Below are positions 50,545-58,936 of a stretch of 64,000 bases of DNA, piece after piece. Under the pieces are notes generated by a model. The model saw nothing but the letters and a program-made list of their open reading frames with translations, made no database searches and had not been told where the DNA came from. Position 1 is the stretch's first letter. Every line of letters starts with the position of its first letter. The DNA comes from Micromonospora sp. MP36 (lineage in GTDB: Bacteria > Actinomycetota > Actinomycetes > Mycobacteriales > Micromonosporaceae): NCBI RefSeq assembly GCF_008119785.1, contig NZ_VSFA01000001.1, positions 248,001 to 312,000 on the forward strand. Reading direction: 5' to 3'. The position numbers were made by a program, and so were the translations under genes.

Positions 50545-51444
50545 TCAGCTGAGCTCGCGCAGGCAGGACCACTGGGCGGCCACCGGCCGGTAGCCGAGCC
50601 GGGCGTTGACCGCCAGCATCGGCGCGTTCGCCTCGTCGTTCGAGGTGTACGCGATCCGTACGCCCGACTTGGCGGCGCGGTGCAGCGCGGCCTGCTTCAC
50701 CAGGCGGGCCAGGCCCCGCCCCCGGTGCCCGGGCACCGTGCCGGTGAACGCCGACCACATCCGGTCGCCGTCCCGCTTGACCAGGCTGACCGCGGTCAGC
50801 ACGCCGTCCACCTCGGCTACCGTGCTGGCGTCCCGGTCCAGCCCTGGGTTGATCCAGACCTCGTTGTGCCAGATGTCGTAGCCCATGGCGTCCGTCGGGA
50901 CGTCGCCCGGTTCGTCCAGCGAAGACTCGGCGTCCACCTGATGGATCCGGTGCGGGTCCACCTCGGTGGCCGGGAGCAGCCGTACGTCCGGCGGCGGCTC
51001 GGGCATCGGCGGGGCGGGCCGTAGGTCGAGTGCGGAGTAGCGCAGCTCCCGACTGGGCGCGAAGCCGTGCCGGCGGGCGAACGGCAGGGACCCGGGCTGG
51101 GACCAGGTGAGCACCCGCCGCGTGCCGATGGCGCGCAGGTGGCCGAGCGCGGCATGCAGGAGTGCGGTGCCGATGCCCCGACTCCGGTGCGCCGGGTGTA
51201 CGTGCAGGGTGGAGATCTCACCCACGTCCGGCTCCGAGGTCTGGCTGTTCCGGTACGCCGACACCCAGCCGACCACCTGCCCGTCCGCCTCGGCCACCCA
51301 GGCCGTCCAGTCTTCCTCGGGCGGCGGATGGGCGATCATGTGCCGGGTCGACTCGACACCGCGCACCAGGTAGGGGTGCACGACAGTCCGGAGGGCCACG
51401 ACGCCCGGCGCGTCGTCGGGGTGGGCGGGACGGATCGCAGACAC
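50545..51444 (-). CDS. GNAT acetyltransferase with two GNAT domains
   Basis: 299 residues. The N-terminal GNAT domain has ISTLHVHPAHRSRGIGTALL, and the C-terminal one has FTGTVPGHRGRGLARLVKQA. The layout resembles MshD and similar double-GNAT proteins, but it is not the mshD of this genome. Substrate unknown. TACCGT lies 6 nt before GTG 51444, so it is leaderless. Confidence 0.85.
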   Translation of the reverse strand: MSAIRPAHPDDAPGVVALRTVVHPYLVRGVESTRHMIAHPPPEEDWTAWVAEADGQVVGWVSAYRNSQTSEPDVGEISTLHVHPAHRSRGIGTALLHAALGHLRAIGTRRVLTWSQPGSLPFARRHGFAPSRELRYSALDLRPAPPMPEPPPDVRLLPATEVDPHRIHQVDAESSLDEPGDVPTDAMGYDIWHNEVWINPGLDRDASTVAEVDGVLTAVSLVKRDGDRMWSAFTGTVPGHRGRGLARLVKQAALHRAAKSGVRIAYTSNDEANAPMLAVNARLGYRPVAAQWSCLRELS

Positions 51445-51619
51445 GGGCCGACGGTAGCCGCAGCCCCCAGAACGCGCGACGAGTTAATGCCGCCACTTTC
51501 GCCTGTAAATGCAAAAAGTCGTGCGCTCACCATCAGAAGTTTCGTCTCCAGCATCTGTCCTTTGTGTTTCGCGGCCGTTAAGGTCCCGTAGAAGATGGTC
51601 GATCGGATGAGGAGGCGCC

Positions 51620-54600
51620 GTGTCCCGCAAGCCGTTACGCCGTCTGCTGTCGGCAGCGCTCGGTGCGCTGCTGGCGCTGCCGATATCCGGAAGCTTCGCC
51701 ACGCCGGCCGCGGCGGCCGAACCGGGCTTCCGGGCCCTGGTCTTCTCGAAGACCGCGGGATTCCGGCACGGTTCGATCCCCGCCGGGATCGCGGCGATTC
51801 AGAAGCTCGGCCAGGACAACAACTTCACGGTCGACGCGACCGAGGACGCCGGGGCGTTCACCGACGCGAACCTGGCCCGCTACGACGTGGTGGTCTGGCT
51901 CTCCACCACCGGCGACGTGCTCGACGACGACCAGCAGGCGGCCTTCGAGCGGTACATCCGCGCCGGCGGCGGCTACGCCGGCGTACACGCCGCCTCGGAC
52001 ACCGAGTACGAGTGGCCGTGGTACGGCAAGCTCGTGGGCGCGTACTTCAACAGCCACCCGGCCATCCAGCAGGCCACGGTGAAGGTGGACGACCACGTGC
52101 ACCCGTCCACCGAGTCCCTGCCGGACCGGTGGGTTCGCACCGACGAGTGGTACAACTACCGCACCGACCCGCGCGGCAAGGTGCACGTGCTCGCGGCCCT
52201 CGACGAGCGGACGTACGGCGCGGGATCGGGCGCGATGGGCACGAGCCACCCGATCGCCTGGTGCCAGCAGTACGACGGAGGACGGTCCTGGTACACCGGC
52301 GGCGGCCACACCGACGCCTCGTACGCCGAACCGGAGTTCCTCAAGCACCTGCTCGGCGGGATCCAGACGGCGGCCGGCGTGCTGCCGGCGGACTGCGGGG
52401 CGACCGTCGACGACAACTTCGCCCAGGTGACCCTCGCCAAGGGCGCGGACACCACCGGCGAACCCATGAACCTCGCGGTGCTGCCCGACCGGCGGGTGCT
52501 GCACACCTCCCGCGACGGCCGCGTCTTCCTCACCACCCCGGAGGGCGTGACCAGCCTCGCCGGCCGGCTCCCGGTCTACAACCACGACGAGGACGGATTG
52601 CAGGGCATCGGGGTGGACCCCGGCTTCGCCGGCAACGGCTGGATCTACCTCTACTACGCACCCCCGCTGGACACCCCGGAGGGGGACGCGCCGAACGACG
52701 GCACCAGCGCCGACTTCGCCCGCTTCGACGGGGTGAACCGGCTGTCCCGGTTCAAACTCACCGGCGGCACCCTCGACCTAGCCAGCGAGCAGGAGATCCT
52801 CGAGGTGCCGGCCAACCGGGGCATCTGCTGCCACGCCGGCGGTGACATCGCCTTCGACGCGGCGGGCAACCTCTACCTTTCCACCGGCGACGACTCCAAC
52901 CCGTTCGCCTCCAGCGGCTACAACCCGATCGACGAGCGGCCCAGCCGAAACCCCGCGTACGACGCGCAGCGCTCGTCGGCCAACCCGAACGACCTGCGGG
53001 GCAAGGTGCTGCGGATCAAGGTGGCCGCCGACGGCAGCTACCAGTCGCCGGAGGGGAACCTCTTCCCGGCCGGCACCGCCGGCACCCGCCCCGAGATCTA
53101 CGCGATGGGTTTCCGTAACCCGTTCCGCTTCACCGTCGACCCGGAGACCGGCTGGCTCTACCTCGGCGAGTACGGCCCGGATGCCGGCGCCGCCGACCCC
53201 AACCGCGGCCCCGCCGGGATGGTGGAGTTCAACCAGATCCGCGGCCCCGGCAACTTCGGCTGGCCGTACTGCGTCGGCCCGAACGTCGCATACAACGACT
53301 ACGACTTCGCCACCGGGACCTCCGGCCCGAAGTTCGACTGCGCCGCCCCGCGCAACACCTCGCCGCACAACACAGGCAAGCAGGACCTGCCCGCCGCGCA
53401 ACCGGCGTGGATCACGTACGACGGCGCCTCGGTGCCGGAGTTCGGCGACGGCAGCGAGTCGCCGATGGGCGGCCCGGTCTACCGGTACGACCCGGACCTG
53501 AGGTCGGACACCAAGTTCCCCGCGTACTACGACGGAACGTTCTTCGCGGCCGACTGGGGACGGGGCTGGATCAAGAACATCGTCCTGGACGACGCCGGCC
53601 AGCCGCAGAGCATCAACCCGTTCCCCGAGCAGGTGGTGCGGCCGATGGACATCGAGTTCGGACCCGACGGCTCCCTCTACGTCCTCGACTACGGCAGCGG
53701 CTACTTCGGCGGCGCGCCGGACTCGGCCGTCTACCGGATCGACTACGTCAAGGGCAAGCGCGCCCCGATCCCGGCGGTGAGCGCCAACCCGACCTCCGGC
53801 GCGGCCCCGCTCACCGTGGCCTTCTCCTCCGCCGGATCCCGGGACCCCGACCCCGGCGACTCGTTCACCTACGCCTGGGACTTCACCGACGACGGCACGG
53901 TCGACTCGACCGAGCCGGACCCCACGTTCACCTACCCCACCAAGGGGCAGTTCACCGCCCGGCTCACCTTGACCGACCAGGCCGGTACGACCGGGACGGC
54001 GACCGTGCAGATCACGGTCGGCAACACGGCGCCGCGCGTCGAGTTCACCTCCCCGCCCGCCGGTGGCGTGTTCCAGTTCGGTGACCGGGTGCCGTTCAAG
54101 ACGACCGTCACCGATCCCGAGGACGGCGAGATCGACTGCGGGACCGTGCAGATCGACTACGCCCTCGGCCACGACACGCACAGCCACGGGCTGGTCCAGA
54201 CGCACGCCTGCGAGGGGGTGCTCGACACCGTCGCCGAGGACGGCCACAGCGCCGACGCCAACCTCTACGGCGTGCTCGCCGCGACCTACACCGACCAGGG
54301 TGCGGCCGGGGTGCCGCCGCTCACCGGGCAGACCCGGCTGGTCCTCCAGCCGCGGGTCCGGCAGAGTGAGCACTTCACCGAGGCCAACGGGATCCAGGTC
54401 GTCGACGCGGGCGGCGCGCGCGGCGGGAAGCGCGTCGGATACATCGACAACGGCGACTGGATCGCGTTCGACACGTACAACCTGACCGGGATCACCGGTG
54501 TCCAGGCCCGGCTCTCCTCGGGCGGCGGAGGCGGCACCCTCGAATTCCGGGCGGACCGGCCCGACGGGCCCCTGGTCGCCAGCCTGGCCGTGGCGAACAC

Positions 54601-57271
54601 CGGCGGCTGGGACAACTACGTCGACAGCCCGGTCGTCCCGGTCACCGACCCCGGCGGCACCCACCGGCTCTACCTGGTGTTCAAGGGCTCCGGCGGTGGG
54701 CTGTTCGACGTCGACCAGTTCACCTTCCACGGCAAGGGCGTGGCGTCGAGCACCCGGCCGGAGGTGAGCGCGTCGGCCGACGTCACCCAGGCGGAGGTCC
54801 CGGCGACCGTCCACTTCACCGCCACCAGCGCGGACCGGGACGGGGACCCGCTCAGCTACGCCTGGGAGTTCGGTGACGGCGCGACGTCGACCGAGCAGAA
54901 CCCGACGCACACCTACACCAGGGCCGGCATCCACACCGCCAAGGTCACGGTGCGGGATCCGTCCGGGCTGGCCGCGTCGGCCACCGTCACGGTGAACACT
55001 TACCGGGTGGCACCGCCCTGCGCAGACCCGTCCGCCGAGGTGAACCCGGACGACGAGTTCACCGGCGAGGTCATCGACCGGTGCCGGTGGACGGTGCTGC
55101 GCGAGGACTCGGCGCACTACCGGCTCGTCAACGGGTCGCTGCAGGTCGACGCCCTCCCGGGTGACATGTACGGCGGCGCCACGGACGCGAAGAACATCCT
55201 GCTCCAGGACGCCCCGGACGGGTCGTGGCAGGCCGTGACGAAGCTGACCATCGACCACACGGACACGTGGGAGCAGGCGGGCCTCATCGTCCACGGCGAC
55301 GACCCGAACTTCGTCAAGTTCTCGTTCATCCGGACCGACAGCGGCGTACGCAACTTCGAGTTCATCCAGCAGCAGGGCGGGTCGCCGATCGACGGCGGCA
55401 CCGTCGACCGTTCGCCCAACCTGGCCGTGGACTTCCCGCACACGGTGTGGATGAAGGTCACCAGCGACGGGCGGACCCTGACGGCGGCGTACTCGACCGA
55501 CGGCGAGCAGTGGACGACCGTCGGTCGGCCGCGGAACCTGGCCGCGGTGCCGAACCCGAAGGTGGGTGTCGCCGCCTTCAACGGCACCGGCAACCCGGCG
55601 TCGTTCGACTTCTTCCGGCTCGACGACGCGCCGCAGCACGCCTGCACGCCGACCGCCCCGGAGGCCGGCTACACCAGCCTCTTCGACGGCACCGCGGCGA
55701 GCCTGGCGAAGTGGAAGCAGGCCGGGCCGGGCGGCTTCCTGCACGCCGCCGACTGCACCCTGCTGTCCTACGGCGGCCTGGGCCTGCACTGGTACGACCA
55801 GAGCTTCCGGGACTACCGCCTGAAGCTGGACTGGAAGCTGGCCGGGGACGACAACTCCGGGGTCTTCGTCGGGTTCCCGAACCCGGGCAACGACCCGTGG
55901 TCGGCGGTCAACCAGGGGCACGAGATCCAGATCGACGCCACGGACGTGCCGGAGAAGACGACCGGAGCGATCTACAACTTCCAGTCGGCCGACCTGGCCG
56001 CCCGGGACGCCGCGCTCAAGCCTCCGGGGCAGTGGAACTCGTACGAGATCGTCGTCCGGGGCCAGAGCATCGTGGTCTTCCTGAACGGCGTGAAGATCAA
56101 CCAGTACGTCAACACCGACCCGGCCCGGATGCAGCAGCCCAGCTACGTCGGCATCCAGAACCACGGCGACGGTGACGACGTCTACTTCCGCAACATCCGG
56201 CTCCAGGAGTTGCCGGCCGACACCGTCGCGCCCACCACCCGGGCGACGACCTCCCCGGCGGACCCGGACGGTGCCGCCGGCTGGTTCCGCTCCGACGTCA
56301 CGGTGACCCTGAACGCCACCGACGGCGACAGCGGCGTGGCGCGGACCGAGTACCGGACCAACGGTGGGTGGACCGCGTACACCGGGCCGATCCCGGTGTC
56401 CGGCGACGGCGAGCACACCGTCGAGTACCGCTCAGTGGACCTCGCGGGCAACGCCGAGGAGGCGCGGCAGCTGGTGGTCAAGCTCGACGGGACCGCGCCG
56501 GTCTCCGCCGCCACGTTCGCCCCGCCGGGCGACGCGGGGTGGCACAACGGAGCTGTGCCGGTCACCATCACGGCCGCCGACCAGACCTCCGGAGTGGGGA
56601 AGATCGAGTACTCGCTCGACGGGGGTGCCTGGACGCCGTACAGCGACTCGGTGGAGGTGCGCGGCGACGGCAACCACACCCTCCGGTACCGGGCGACGGA
56701 CCGGGCGGGCAACGTCGAGGACGTGAAGTCCGCCGTGCTGAAGATCGACGGTACGGCCCCGGCGGTCCTCCTCTCCGGGGTGGCGGCCGGCGCCACGTAC
56801 GGCGACAGCCAGGACGTGCGGATCACCTACTCGGCGACGGACGGTACGTCGGGGGTGGCGTCGCTGGTCGGCACGCTCGACGGGAAGCCGATCCTCGACA
56901 ACACCCTGCTGCCGCTCTACGGGCTGTCGCTCGGCGAGCACACCCTGGCGGTGGTGGCGACCGACGAGGCGGGCAACCGGTCGACCCGGTCGATCACCTT
57001 CACCGTGACGACCTCGATCGAGGACATGGGCAACCTGGTGGACCGGTTCCGGTCCACCGGCTGGCTCTCTGCCGAGAGTGCCACCCAGCTGCACAAACCG
57101 TTGGACCAGGCCGGCAAGTTCGCGGCCAAGGGGCTCAACAAGCAGGCGGTGCGGGAGCTCCGGCCGTTCCGGGACCTGGCGGGTGACCCGAAGGTCGTGC
57201 CGAACGCCGAGGTGCGCGCCGTCCTGGTCCGCGACGCGGACGTGATGATCGGGCGGTTGTCCGGGAAGTAG
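51620..57271 (+). CDS. Secreted multi-domain ThuA / sugar dehydrogenase / DUF1080 protein, 1883 residues
   Basis: A signal peptide (about 1-33) is followed by: a ThuA domain (about 36-258, FSKTAGFRHGSIPAGIAAIQ, AGVHAASDTEYEWPWYG); a PQQ-type glucose/sorbosone dehydrogenase propeller (about 264-711, LQGIGVDPGFAGNG, RGKVLRIKVA, MGFRNPFRFTVD); PKD domain 1 (717-801); a linker; a CBM6-like domain (about 914-1040, GGKRVGYIDNGDWIAFDTYN); PKD 2 (1048-1127, GDPLSYAWEFGDGATS); a laminin-G/DUF1349-like domain (1142-1337); a DUF1080 domain (1348-1531, YTSLFDGTAASLAKWK, DNSGVFVGFP); three Ig-like repeats (1538-1797, HTVEYRSVDLAGN); and a FIMAH-like end (1798-1882). It is predicted to bind and oxidise or hydrolyse (3-keto-)sugars of plant or microbial polymers. 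GTG 51620 has GAGGAG upstream; -10 TAAGGT at 51579. Confidence 0.85.
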   Translation: MSRKPLRRLLSAALGALLALPISGSFATPAAAAEPGFRALVFSKTAGFRHGSIPAGIAAIQKLGQDNNFTVDATEDAGAFTDANLARYDVVVWLSTTGDVLDDDQQAAFERYIRAGGGYAGVHAASDTEYEWPWYGKLVGAYFNSHPAIQQATVKVDDHVHPSTESLPDRWVRTDEWYNYRTDPRGKVHVLAALDERTYGAGSGAMGTSHPIAWCQQYDGGRSWYTGGGHTDASYAEPEFLKHLLGGIQTAAGVLPADCGATVDDNFAQVTLAKGADTTGEPMNLAVLPDRRVLHTSRDGRVFLTTPEGVTSLAGRLPVYNHDEDGLQGIGVDPGFAGNGWIYLYYAPPLDTPEGDAPNDGTSADFARFDGVNRLSRFKLTGGTLDLASEQEILEVPANRGICCHAGGDIAFDAAGNLYLSTGDDSNPFASSGYNPIDERPSRNPAYDAQRSSANPNDLRGKVLRIKVAADGSYQSPEGNLFPAGTAGTRPEIYAMGFRNPFRFTVDPETGWLYLGEYGPDAGAADPNRGPAGMVEFNQIRGPGNFGWPYCVGPNVAYNDYDFATGTSGPKFDCAAPRNTSPHNTGKQDLPAAQPAWITYDGASVPEFGDGSESPMGGPVYRYDPDLRSDTKFPAYYDGTFFAADWGRGWIKNIVLDDAGQPQSINPFPEQVVRPMDIEFGPDGSLYVLDYGSGYFGGAPDSAVYRIDYVKGKRAPIPAVSANPTSGAAPLTVAFSSAGSRDPDPGDSFTYAWDFTDDGTVDSTEPDPTFTYPTKGQFTARLTLTDQAGTTGTATVQITVGNTAPRVEFTSPPAGGVFQFGDRVPFKTTVTDPEDGEIDCGTVQIDYALGHDTHSHGLVQTHACEGVLDTVAEDGHSADANLYGVLAATYTDQGAAGVPPLTGQTRLVLQPRVRQSEHFTEANGIQVVDAGGARGGKRVGYIDNGDWIAFDTYNLTGITGVQARLSSGGGGGTLEFRADRPDGPLVASLAVANTGGWDNYVDSPVVPVTDPGGTHRLYLVFKGSGGGLFDVDQFTFHGKGVASSTRPEVSASADVTQAEVPATVHFTATSADRDGDPLSYAWEFGDGATSTEQNPTHTYTRAGIHTAKVTVRDPSGLAASATVTVNTYRVAPPCADPSAEVNPDDEFTGEVIDRCRWTVLREDSAHYRLVNGSLQVDALPGDMYGGATDAKNILLQDAPDGSWQAVTKLTIDHTDTWEQAGLIVHGDDPNFVKFSFIRTDSGVRNFEFIQQQGGSPIDGGTVDRSPNLAVDFPHTVWMKVTSDGRTLTAAYSTDGEQWTTVGRPRNLAAVPNPKVGVAAFNGTGNPASFDFFRLDDAPQHACTPTAPEAGYTSLFDGTAASLAKWKQAGPGGFLHAADCTLLSYGGLGLHWYDQSFRDYRLKLDWKLAGDDNSGVFVGFPNPGNDPWSAVNQGHEIQIDATDVPEKTTGAIYNFQSADLAARDAALKPPGQWNSYEIVVRGQSIVVFLNGVKINQYVNTDPARMQQPSYVGIQNHGDGDDVYFRNIRLQELPADTVAPTTRATTSPADPDGAAGWFRSDVTVTLNATDGDSGVARTEYRTNGGWTAYTGPIPVSGDGEHTVEYRSVDLAGNAEEARQLVVKLDGTAPVSAATFAPPGDAGWHNGAVPVTITAADQTSGVGKIEYSLDGGAWTPYSDSVEVRGDGNHTLRYRATDRAGNVEDVKSAVLKIDGTAPAVLLSGVAAGATYGDSQDVRITYSATDGTSGVASLVGTLDGKPILDNTLLPLYGLSLGEHTLAVVATDEAGNRSTRSITFTVTTSIEDMGNLVDRFRSTGWLSAESATQLHKPLDQAGKFAAKGLNKQAVRELRPFRDLAGDPKVVPNAEVRAVLVRDADVMIGRLSGK

Positions 57272-57286: not shown

Positions 57287-57323
57287 GGCCGGGGCCGGGG
57301 GTGCCACACCCCCGGCCCCGGCC
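57287..57323. terminator. Perfect 17-bp bidirectional terminator hairpin
   Basis: GGCCGGGGCCGGGGGTG and CACCCCCGGCCCCGGCC pair fully around CCA, between the convergent stops of the ThuA-family gene and the LacI gene. Confidence 0.85.
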
Positions 57324-57341: not shown

Positions 57342-58349
57342 CTACGCGGAGTCGCGGACGACGAGCTCGGTCGGCAGCATCAGCGCCTGCTCGACCGTCC
57401 CGCCCGCCGCGATCCGGAGCAGCTGCCGGGTCATCGCCCGGCCCAGCTCCACTATCGGCTGCCGGATCGTGGTCAGCGGCGGTTCGGTGTACGCCGCCGT
57501 CTCGATATCGTCGAAGCCGACCACCGCCACGTCGTCCGGCACCCGCCGCCCCGCCTCCCGCAGGGTCCGCAGGGCGGCGTGCGCCATCAGGTCGGACGCG
57601 GCGAACACCGCGTCCAGGTCCGGGTGCTCGGCGAGCAGTTGCCGCATCGCCGCGGTGCCGGACTCCCGGGTGAAGTCGCCGAACGCGACCAGCTCGGGCA
57701 GCCCGGCCGCGGCGACGGTCTCCCGGTAGCCGACCAGCCGCTCGATGCCGGCGACCATGTCCTGGGGCCCGGCGATGGTGGCAATCCGCCGCCGGCCCCC
57801 CTCGATCAGGTGGCGCACCGCCCGGGCGACCCCGCCGACGTGGTCGATGTCGACGTACGGCACCTCGGCGCCGTCCAGCGGCCGGCCGCTGCACACCACC
57901 GGGATGCCGAGCCGGGCCAGCTTGCCGGGCAGCGGGTCCGCGCCGTGCAGCGAGGCGAAGAGCACCCCGTCCACGTGCCGGCCGGTGGTGTACCGCTCGA
58001 CCCGCTCGTGCCCGGCCGGCGAGCCGGCCAGCATGAGCACGAGCTGCTTGTCCGCCGCCTCCAACTCCTGTGCCGCTCCGCGGATGATGCCCGGGAAGAC
58101 CTGGTCGTCGGAGAAGACCCGGGTCGCCGCCTCGGGCAGCACCAGCGCGATCGAGTCGGTCCGCTGGGTGACCAGGCTGCGGGCGGCCAGGTTCGGCACG
58201 TACCCGAGCTCCTCGACGGCCTGGCGGACGGCCCGCTGGATCGACTCGGCGACCGTGGTGGAGCCGTTGACCACCCGGGAGACCGTGGCCCGGGACACGC
58301 CGGCCCGGCGGGCCACCGCCTCCAGGGTCGGGCGCTGCGCCGTCGTCAT
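57342..58349 (-). CDS. LacI family transcriptional repressor
   Basis: 335 residues. The HTH/hinge (about 8-60) is LEAVARRAGVSRATVSRVVN with LAARSLVTQR, followed by a periplasmic-binding-like domain (about 65-335, HVDGVLFASLHGADPLPG, VAVVGFDDIETAAYTEPPLT). Likely a sugar-responsive repressor. Its gene is 20 nt downstream of the GH1 remnant in the same direction, the usual bglA-lacI arrangement, and faces the ThuA protein gene, its probable remaining target. ATG 58349; a GTG five codons earlier is possible. Confidence 0.87.
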   Translation of the reverse strand: MTTAQRPTLEAVARRAGVSRATVSRVVNGSTTVAESIQRAVRQAVEELGYVPNLAARSLVTQRTDSIALVLPEAATRVFSDDQVFPGIIRGAAQELEAADKQLVLMLAGSPAGHERVERYTTGRHVDGVLFASLHGADPLPGKLARLGIPVVCSGRPLDGAEVPYVDIDHVGGVARAVRHLIEGGRRRIATIAGPQDMVAGIERLVGYRETVAAAGLPELVAFGDFTRESGTAAMRQLLAEHPDLDAVFAASDLMAHAALRTLREAGRRVPDDVAVVGFDDIETAAYTEPPLTTIRQPIVELGRAMTRQLLRIAAGGTVEQALMLPTELVVRDSA

Positions 58350-58368
58350 CCCCGTTACCCCCACCTCG

Positions 58369-58525
58369 TCACAGCCCGTTCCGGGAGATCACCTCCTGGT
58401 GCCAGCGGGCGCTCCTTGGGCGTGCGCCGCCGGGTCAGGTGGTCGACGTGGACGATCCCGAACCGCATGCGGTAACCCTCGACCCGTTCGAAGTTGTCCA
58501 ACGACGACCATACGAGATCGCCCGC
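58369..58525 (-). pseudogene. C-terminal remnant of a GH1 beta-glucosidase
   Basis: About 52 codons of the GH1 C-terminus survive: DLVWSSLDNFERVEGYRMRF and GIVHVDHLTRRRTPKE, corresponding to the WSLLDNFEW and RFGIVHVDY regions of family 1 glycosidases. A frameshift follows KE, and the other frame then gives ARWHQEVISRNGL and TGA, the normal family end. Everything upstream (about 400 residues, with both catalytic Glu) is missing. It lies 20 nt before the LacI gene. Confidence 0.75.
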
Positions 58526-58615
58526 GCAGGTCGACCCTGCGGGCGACGCCGCGATCGCCGACATCTCGTCACCGTGCGTAATGGCGACGACTGCAGGCAC
58601 CTTCTCCGGCGCCCG

Positions 58616-58684
58616 CTTTGCCCTGCAGCCGCATACGCAGCAGCCACGTTCCGTGCCCGCTGCGTAGGTGGCTGCAGAGCAAAG
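58616..58684. repeat. 69-nt imperfect inverted repeat
   Basis: Two 26-nt arms, beginning CTTTGCCCTGCAGCC and ending GGCTGCAGAGCAAAG, pair with three mismatches around a 17-nt loop. I recall similar TGCAGCC/GGCTGCAG elements between genes of Micromonospora relatives, but could not search. It sits at the broken side of the GH1 remnant. Confidence 0.7.
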
Positions 58685-58936
58685 GCGGACGGGAGCGACT
58701 ACGGTGCCTCCGCGCTGCTGGGGCTAATAGTCCGATTTGCTGTCGTTCGGCGGAGGGTTTGGGTGGTCCCAAGGTCACGCAGGTTCGGCGTTGGTGACCC
58801 AACGTGAGGATTACCCGCCGTCACTCGTTGCCCGACGCTCGGCGCCCAGGCGAACGGCGGAGCGTGGCCTCCCCATGCCGGGACGCCACTCTCCGCCGGG
58901 CTGTTGCGCGAGCCCAGGGTGCCGCCGGGCGAGGGG
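58685..58936. other. Gene-poor stretch, no function recognised
   Basis: About 250 nt after the palindrome, less G+C-biased than its surroundings, with no convincing coding region on either strand and no intact mobile-element end. It may be decayed sequence left by whatever removed the body of the GH1 gene. Confidence 0.4.

Follow-up and report, generated by a model that had tools for sequence, protein, structure and literature searches.

A 64,000-nucleotide window of the Micromonospora sp. MP36 genome (contig NZ_VSFA01000001.1, positions 248,001 to 312,000) contains one long gene that joins ThuA, GSDH-type propeller and DUF1080 domains to a series of accessory modules. This fusion is a rare form within a widespread and little-studied actinomycete family with the core ThuA-GSDH-PKD-X-CBM6, where X is a domain without annotation, and its make-up supports a secreted-looking, carbohydrate-binding chain. 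ThuA, GSDH and DUF1080 are linked repeatedly among relatives, both within single chains, of two orders, and as neighbouring genes, and this supports a joint function. We tentatively read the fusion as a secreted, polysaccharide-associated sugar oxidoreductase of this family, oxidising and then cleaving its substrate on one chain; the reading is plausible, and our confidence in it stops somewhat short of even.

Domains were called with Pfam profiles at their curated cut-offs and with NCBIfam, which gave 22 and 8 matches on the chain, respectively. The layout of the gene is as follows, with scores given against the cut-off of each profile.

51620..57271, plus strand: whole fusion gene, a single open frame of 1883 codons, GTG start, GGAGG ribosome-binding motif just upstream
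51620..51718, plus strand: signal-peptide-like N-terminus (residues 1-33), read by eye from the translation
51731..52366, plus strand: ThuA (residues 38-249), PF06283, 280.2 bits against 33.4; fold match 4jqs
52403..53719, plus strand: GSDH six-bladed propeller (residues ~262-700), PF07995, 117.4 bits against 25; 3a9g fold, alignment to sGDH (soluble glucose dehydrogenase) 1c9u
52826..52834, plus strand: C403-C404-H405, vicinal cysteines beside the catalytic His, from conservation over 115 GSDH domains
53747..54037, plus strand: first PKD (residues ~710-806), PKD_4 and PKD, two stretches each
54038..54355, plus strand: domain X (residues 807-912), a beta sandwich of Ig/PKD-like type that has no annotation; histidines 851, 854, 856 and 876 are conserved
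54362..54730, plus strand: CBM6 (residues 915-1037), PF03422 (CBM_6), 105 bits against 29
54755..54994, plus strand: second PKD (residues 1046-1125), Pfam
55052..55618, plus strand: concanavalin-like GH43_C2/DUF1349 (residues 1145-1333), 48 bits against 23 and 46 against 32
55667..56203, plus strand: DUF1080/3keto-disac_hyd (residues 1350-1528), PF06439, 130.3 bits against 26.8
56237..57010, plus strand: three Ig-like/OmpL47-type repeats (residues ~1540-1797), Big_13, 49 bits against 27, and NCBIfam
57017..57250, plus strand: FIMAH (residues 1800-1877), PF22888, 55 bits against 25

The original prediction, made from the letters of the window, was that one secreted protein carries these domains in a continuous frame. 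The frame is open and intact over its whole length, and each of the named domains (ThuA, GSDH, DUF1080, PKD, CBM6, Ig-like and FIMAH) exceeded its curated cut-off, including the GSDH and DUF1080 signatures on which the prediction had depended. PKD_4 scored 108 bits against a cut-off of 27, and NCBIfam assigned the Ig-like repeats to OmpL47-type domains in three stretches. The predicted signal peptide agrees with the appearance of the N-terminus, as judged by eye, and we infer that the protein is secreted. The search also added domains that the prediction had not listed, namely the GH43_C2/DUF1349 domain, the second PKD and X.

Relatives were compared at 80 named loci, which are the best of at least 588 stretches encoding ThuA relatives, ranked by their ThuA match; some of these loci overlap and some come from one genome (L070 and L093), and shares among them are not natural frequencies. 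ThuA and GSDH were found on one chain at 69 of the 80 loci, and the statement that the domains of the fusion are usually found in separate genes is therefore wrong for this pair. All three domains lay on one chain at nine loci (L055, L072, L092, L093, L094, L108, L109, L112 and L114), and at three more (L098, L100 and L111) a ThuA-DUF1080 gene adjoined a GSDH gene, a two-gene form that was also present in the genus relatives L023-L027, L148 and L149. The three-domain chains occurred in two orders and three layouts: ThuA-GSDH-...-DUF1080 with X and CBM6; GSDH-...-CBM6-ThuA-DUF1080, where the GSDH-first single chain was seen only in Streptomyces (L108 and L109); and a layout with ThuA first but interrupted, without X (L112, L114 and, from the genome of the window itself, L128). 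A GSDH-first single chain in Micromonospora was also considered and rejected, as L148 and L149 each proved to hold two neighbouring genes. The fusion was thus less singular than proposed. A quick tree was drawn from 115 GSDH domains; on it, the label for three-domain chains with ThuA first, carried by 8 rows, needed four changes, at least three of them forced by starred branches, and some of the four may be losses.

The usual long form of the family carries two concanavalin-like domains, and DUF1080 occupies the place of the second one in the fusion. In a comparison with 21 other DUF1080 domains, that of the fusion was nearest (77%) to the one in Jiangella L094. A second one-chain ThuA-GSDH-PKD-DUF1080 protein is encoded in the same genome (G000:C157; L003, L004 and L128), close to a TIM-barrel gene and a DUF1080 protein with Ig repeats. 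A shorter ThuA-GSDH-PKD-X-CBM6 protein was seen in Micromonospora (L021, with a fragment in L028); its ThuA has lost several otherwise conserved positions, among them the histidines equivalent to residues 146 and 230 of the fusion, and is perhaps no longer an enzyme. No paper joining ThuA, DUF1080 and pyrroloquinoline quinone (PQQ), or ThuA with 'PQQ-dependent sugar dehydrogenase', was found in a literature search that covered few subscription papers.

An intact fusion was present in 4 of the 151 Micromonospora genomes, the source included, as judged from the whole DUF1349-DUF1080 piece, and the order of domains did not differ among the four. The three other full-length copies were 93, 92 and 87% identical across this piece. 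Over the six pairs of the four orthologs, the ratio of nonsynonymous to synonymous substitution rates (dN/dS) was 0.20-0.23 for the whole gene. GSDH, at 0.10-0.17, was among the lowest of the domains (PKD1 was lower in two of the six pairs); DUF1080 gave 0.26-0.34, and FIMAH was the loosest domain at 0.33-0.69. The gene is therefore real and under purifying selection. An assembly artefact or a chance read-through fusion, for which nothing was found, is already refuted by the three same-order orthologs and by gene-wide purifying selection, and can be dismissed for practical purposes. Remnants of the gene lay at the same site, between a LacI-family and a GNAT gene, in two further genomes: G010 keeps residues 1334-1550 (L150 2544-3188), and G107 holds pieces in different frames (L151 1716-2875), in each case a decayed fusion gene. 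In three other genomes (G150, G022 and G049), the interval between LacI and GNAT held no part of the fusion. With intact copies in only four genomes and two decayed remnants, the fusion is an accessory gene with losses, and it is dispensable.

The core of the protein (residues 34-1042) was modelled with AlphaFold from 66 sequences, with a mean predicted local distance difference test score (pLDDT) of 93 and a predicted template modelling score (pTM) of 0.88. In this model, the propeller matched the PQQ sugar dehydrogenase 3a9g with a Z of 40.5 and a root-mean-square deviation (rmsd) of 2.4 over 332 aligned residues, and the PQQ-bound Streptomyces coelicolor protein 3das with a Z of 36.4; bacterial PQQ aldose dehydrogenases as a group scored Z 31-40, and AA12 enzymes Z 27-29. 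Residues H405, R499 and N500 were invariant in all 115 aligned GSDH domains, a set that includes near-copies. They fall at the positions of His144, Arg228 and Asn229 of sGDH (1c9u) in an alignment to a profile built from 31 of the 115, and the roles of the catalytic His and of the Arg-Asn pair at the quinone have been described for sGDH (accessible part of PMC6881810).

The DUF1080 domain of the fusion has NSG, W-N, H-G and FRN motifs that aligned in all five solved DUF1080 proteins compared. E1435-x-Q1437 aligned in three of the five, and E-x-Q was present but shifted in 3h3l and 3s5q. Across 22 rows, N1412, E1435, Q1437, W1472, N1473 and Q1513 were conserved at 95% or more and H1515 at 85-95%; no catalytic residues of DUF1080 were found in print. 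To our knowledge, ThuA proteins have no settled activity. The ThuA domain of the core model matched 4jqs with a Z of 24.8 and an rmsd of 2.4 over 219 residues, and its H123, D127, H146, E176 and H230 were kept in at least 95% of 126 rows. In Caulobacter, DUF1080 and the LacABC 3-dehydrogenase have been tied genetically to lactose use (accessible part of PMC9007349).

These observations can be assembled into a mechanism, which we put forward conditionally. CBM6 and the other beta-sandwich modules would tether the protein to a polysaccharide or to fragments of one, and the propeller would oxidise a sugar hydroxyl to a ketone, presumably at C3, with a bound quinone cofactor that would be scavenged. 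DUF1080 would next split the resulting 3-keto sugar at its glycosidic bond, ThuA might assist an undefined step of 3-keto-sugar handling, and the products would be imported. An extracellular machine that binds a polymer, oxidises it and performs 3-keto cleavage had been suggested for this gene under the control of a facing LacI repressor; the architecture, the invariant GSDH catalytic residues, the DUF1080 motifs and the linkage agree with the machine, while the control by LacI did not stand (see below).

Several findings weigh against this mechanism, some of which speak for other accounts of the protein. First, the human binding protein HHIP also matched the propeller (Z 26-31) and was found by the GSDH profile (E 1e-14), so that the fold alone is no proof of an enzyme. 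The fusion could instead be mainly a polysaccharide-binding or adhesive protein, with the propeller and DUF1080 as non-catalytic scaffolds like the GSDH-like binding domain of HHIP. This would suit the fact that binding or spacer modules make up much of the chain, as well as the dispensability of the gene and the cofactor genes described below. We nevertheless consider it unlikely, given the unvarying H405, R499 and N500, the low dN/dS of GSDH and the retention of the five ThuA residues. Second, no DUF1080 was present in the stretch at hand at 62 of the 80 related loci, and the core therefore works without DUF1080 there. Third, the locus in the window has none of the sugar-pathway neighbours that are described below for relatives. 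Fourth, we know of no C3-specific enzyme of the GSDH propeller fold; sGDH acts at C1, and AA12 has been modelled alike (accessible part of PMC6881810). Fifth, the DUF1080 protein THTE_1561 is cited as an endo-xanthanase/lichenase in the accessible part of PMC9007349, an activity that would need no prior oxidation, and cleavage of the xanthan backbone has been proposed for DUF1080 proteins (accessible part of PMC5673643). These reports would fit a direct endo-glycosidase, in which DUF1080 hydrolyses unoxidised polymer and the propeller serves some other purpose. That account seems improbable to us, since DUF1080 is repeatedly linked to an oxidoreductase domain and a connection to 3-keto sugars is known for other DUF1080 proteins (PMC9007349, same part).

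The remaining points against the oxidise-then-cleave mechanism concern the cofactor. Lys377 and Arg408 of sGDH correspond to G647 and M676, respectively, and the basic residues that meet the PQQ carboxylates in sGDH are thus absent. Column 647 held N in 49, G in 35, T in 11, S in 8 and A in 4 of the 115 domains, and column 676 held M in 97, I in 10 and H in 8; R674, at the place of sGDH Arg406, was R in 47 of 115. An earlier placement of Lys377 at W646, in a weak stretch of alignment, was replaced by G647 from the profile alignment. Escherichia coli Asd keeps Lys377 and both arginines in the profile alignment, and AA12 also lacks the sGDH lysine and uses other residues instead (accessible part of PMC6881789). 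Owing to the absence of Lys377 and Arg408 equivalents, we file the domain as a GSDH fold and not as a proven PQQ enzyme. In addition, PqqC exceeded its cut-off in none of 25 genomes of the genus and in none of 14 control genomes, the only positive among 41 genomes overall being G036, and the five PqqE matches in the genome of the window all fell below the cut-off (best 55 bits against 381). A quinone cofactor, if one is used, must therefore be scavenged. The same genome gave 13 GSDH matches, three of them within one frame.

Two further features of the core are conserved in most of the family. Vicinal cysteines C403 and C404 precede the catalytic His, each in 111 of the 115 domains, and this pair was absent from the four solved relatives aligned. 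Domain X follows the propeller and PKD in nearly the whole family, being lacking in four GSDH entries, one of which is a cut-off contig; its H851, H854 and H856 were present in 115 of 115 and H876 in 112 of 115. Strict coevolution of the cysteine pair with X was considered and rejected, since the pair occurred without X in five entries (at least two of which are truncated where the stretch ends; one protein may sit in several loci) and X without the pair in seven. No Pfam family passed its cut-off for X in the window member, and weak Ig-type matches only were obtained for 65 members. Modelled alone, X formed a beta sandwich (pLDDT 87) with a best structural Z of 10.5, for which Ig, PKD and FnIII domains stood on top; the match to the copper protein CopC (5icu) was weak (Z 8.4, rmsd 3.0 over 90 residues). 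Its best solved sequence relative was 9kvu, a bacterial Ig domain (E 0.059), and Foldseek found no match at E 0.001 or below, the best being again 9kvu at 0.004. Several lytic polysaccharide monooxygenases (LPMOs) were among the weak Foldseek matches (E ~0.1). X is therefore not established as a known metal protein, nor do weak matches make its fold new; its conserved histidines suggest that it may bind metal.

The fullest form of the pathway would place all of these features outside the cell, with a new type of quinone site, oxidation of polymer-bound sugars at C3, a scavenged quinone, an electron relay through X and cleavage by DUF1080. The putative new site would have the vicinal cysteines by the catalytic His and would lack the PQQ-anchoring lysine of sGDH and E. 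coli Asd. We give this complete version only a small chance. The same features could belong to an auxiliary oxidoreductase of the AA12 type, which would oxidise C1 of reducing ends or released sugars and pass electrons to, for example, a copper oxygenase, with DUF1080 either acting separately or being just a carbohydrate-binding beta sandwich. The fold matches to bacterial PQQ aldose dehydrogenases and to AA12 are in keeping with this, as is the precedent of AA12 CcPDH, which joins a carbohydrate-binding module and a cytochrome b domain and drives an LPMO (accessible parts of PMC6881789 and PMC5960967); the four-His X next to the propeller could be a metal relay, with CopC and LPMOs among its weak matches. 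However, no cytochrome domain was identified, a weak PVC-type CxxCH match (25.6 bits against a cut-off of 122) sits in the propeller, unrelated Ig folds reach scores as good as those of the weak matches of X, and the linkage of GSDH with ThuA and DUF1080 is left unexplained. We regard this auxiliary role as possible but doubtful.

We also examined the genes around the relatives. Among the 80 loci, a ribose-type binding protein was present at 32, a Gfo/Idh/MocA gene at 30 and an AP_endonuc_2-type gene at 33; a GH95 query was left out of these counts, as what it picked up, at 65 of the 80 loci, were accessory modules belonging to the fusions. Binding proteins were found at 13 of 18 loci with DUF1080 versus 19 of 62 without, with related genomes counted as independent. 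In the genome of the window, where genes and genomes were likewise taken as independent, 5 of 21 AP_endonuc_2 matches lay within 10 kb of a GSDH match, a space of 1.86% of the bases (0.39 expected); the corresponding numbers were 2 of 19 for Gfo/Idh/MocA (0.35 expected) and 5 of 36 for Peripla_BP_4 (0.67 expected), the LacI gene of the window being among the latter. At L092, an importer and a Gfo/Idh/MocA gene precede the fusion-family gene, and inositol-phosphate-synthase-like and TIM-barrel genes follow it; L112 is similar. Gfo/Idh/MocA, inositol-phosphate-synthase-like, several TIM-barrel, TatD and phosphodiesterase genes stand alongside at L072, L092, L104, L108, L112 and L114, a neighbourhood that we take to resemble the ebo cluster. 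A multicopper-oxidase-like gene shares the stretch with ThuA-GSDH genes at 3 of the 80 loci (L112 14926-15942, L103 and L114), and its product is a possible electron acceptor. A single Agrobacterium operon encodes both a Gfo oxidoreductase and a TIM-barrel enzyme that acts as a beta-eliminase on 3-keto-glucosides (accessible part of PMC10628242). By this likeness, the Gfo neighbours and, if the eliminase belongs to AP_endonuc_2, the neighbours of that family may point to 3-keto chemistry, but both families are broad.

In the window, the fusion gene is flanked upstream by a divergent GNAT gene and downstream by a convergent regulator:

57287..57323, no strand: hairpin rich in G+C, lying between the two convergent genes and probably terminating both; position hand-counted from the sequence
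57342..58364, minus strand: LacI-family regulator, convergent, called by Pfam; near-universal in the genus and outside the system

The LacI gene does face the fusion, in that the two are convergent and separated by 70 bp, within which a strong hairpin lies. Control of the fusion by this LacI was rejected: the regulator was 81-100% identical in 148 of the 151 genus genomes, against an intact fusion in four. By best match per genome, no LacI match of at least 81% identity was found in G020, G102 and G105. G102 carries a broken LacI beside a kept fusion, with residues 6-123 and 218-340 matching in different frames (L147 5108-5829). Palindromes of 16 bases centred on CG, with one mismatched pair allowed, were absent from 51400-51640, upstream of the fusion, and from 58340-58700; the search was confined to this operator form.

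Of what this analysis adds, most useful are the repeated ThuA-GSDH-DUF1080 linkage, the absence of a PqqC over cut-off from the 25 genus genomes, and the four-His X. The linkage provides a testable proposal for all three domains, that of extracellular 3-keto-sugar chemistry on polysaccharides. If this is true, soil actinomycetes would possess an oxidative route of glycan breakdown beside hydrolases and copper oxygenases, and a one-chain oxidise-then-cleave pathway would amount to a non-hydrolytic disassembly of extracellular polysaccharide. GSDH-fold proteins are many in a genus where PqqC was not found over cut-off, and, if the proposal is right, these bacteria would take PQQ or another quinone from their neighbours.

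The fusion can be compared with several known systems. With the soluble PQQ aldose dehydrogenases (3das, Pyrobaculum aerophilum 3a9g and Acinetobacter calcoaceticus sGDH) it shares the six-bladed propeller and the catalytic His, Arg and Asn; it differs from them in its length of 1883 residues, in the Cys-Cys before the His, in lacking equivalents of Lys377 and Arg408, and in belonging to a genus without PqqC over cut-off. The AA12 enzyme CcPDH of Coprinopsis is likewise a secreted propeller chained to a carbohydrate-binding module and without the sGDH lysine, but has an AA8 cytochrome b and a CBM1 (accessible part of PMC6881789), of which Pfam and NCBIfam found no trace in the fusion; as no AA8 cytochrome b is among its 22 Pfam and 8 NCBIfam matches, we do not file the fusion as AA12/AA8, although by analogy it may work like AA12. 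To the DUF1080 3-keto-glycoside hydrolases, such as BT2157 and CCNA_01705, the fusion is related by its own PF06439 match (130 bits) and by the motifs in common with solved members; those two proteins are single domains (accessible part of PMC9007349), whereas DUF1080 is one of 12 modules in the fusion. Also close are the actinomycete ThuA-GSDH-PKD-X-CBM6 proteins and their two-gene relatives; 65 relatives aligned to the N-terminal core (residues 34-1042) with 45-68% identity. In most relatives whose architecture was compared, DUF1080 is missing and there are two domains of DUF1349-like or F5/8C type. In Jiangella L094 and Phytoactinopolyspora L055, the same core is followed by DUF1349-like, DUF1080 and FIMAH domains, to which the fusion adds a second PKD and three Ig repeats.

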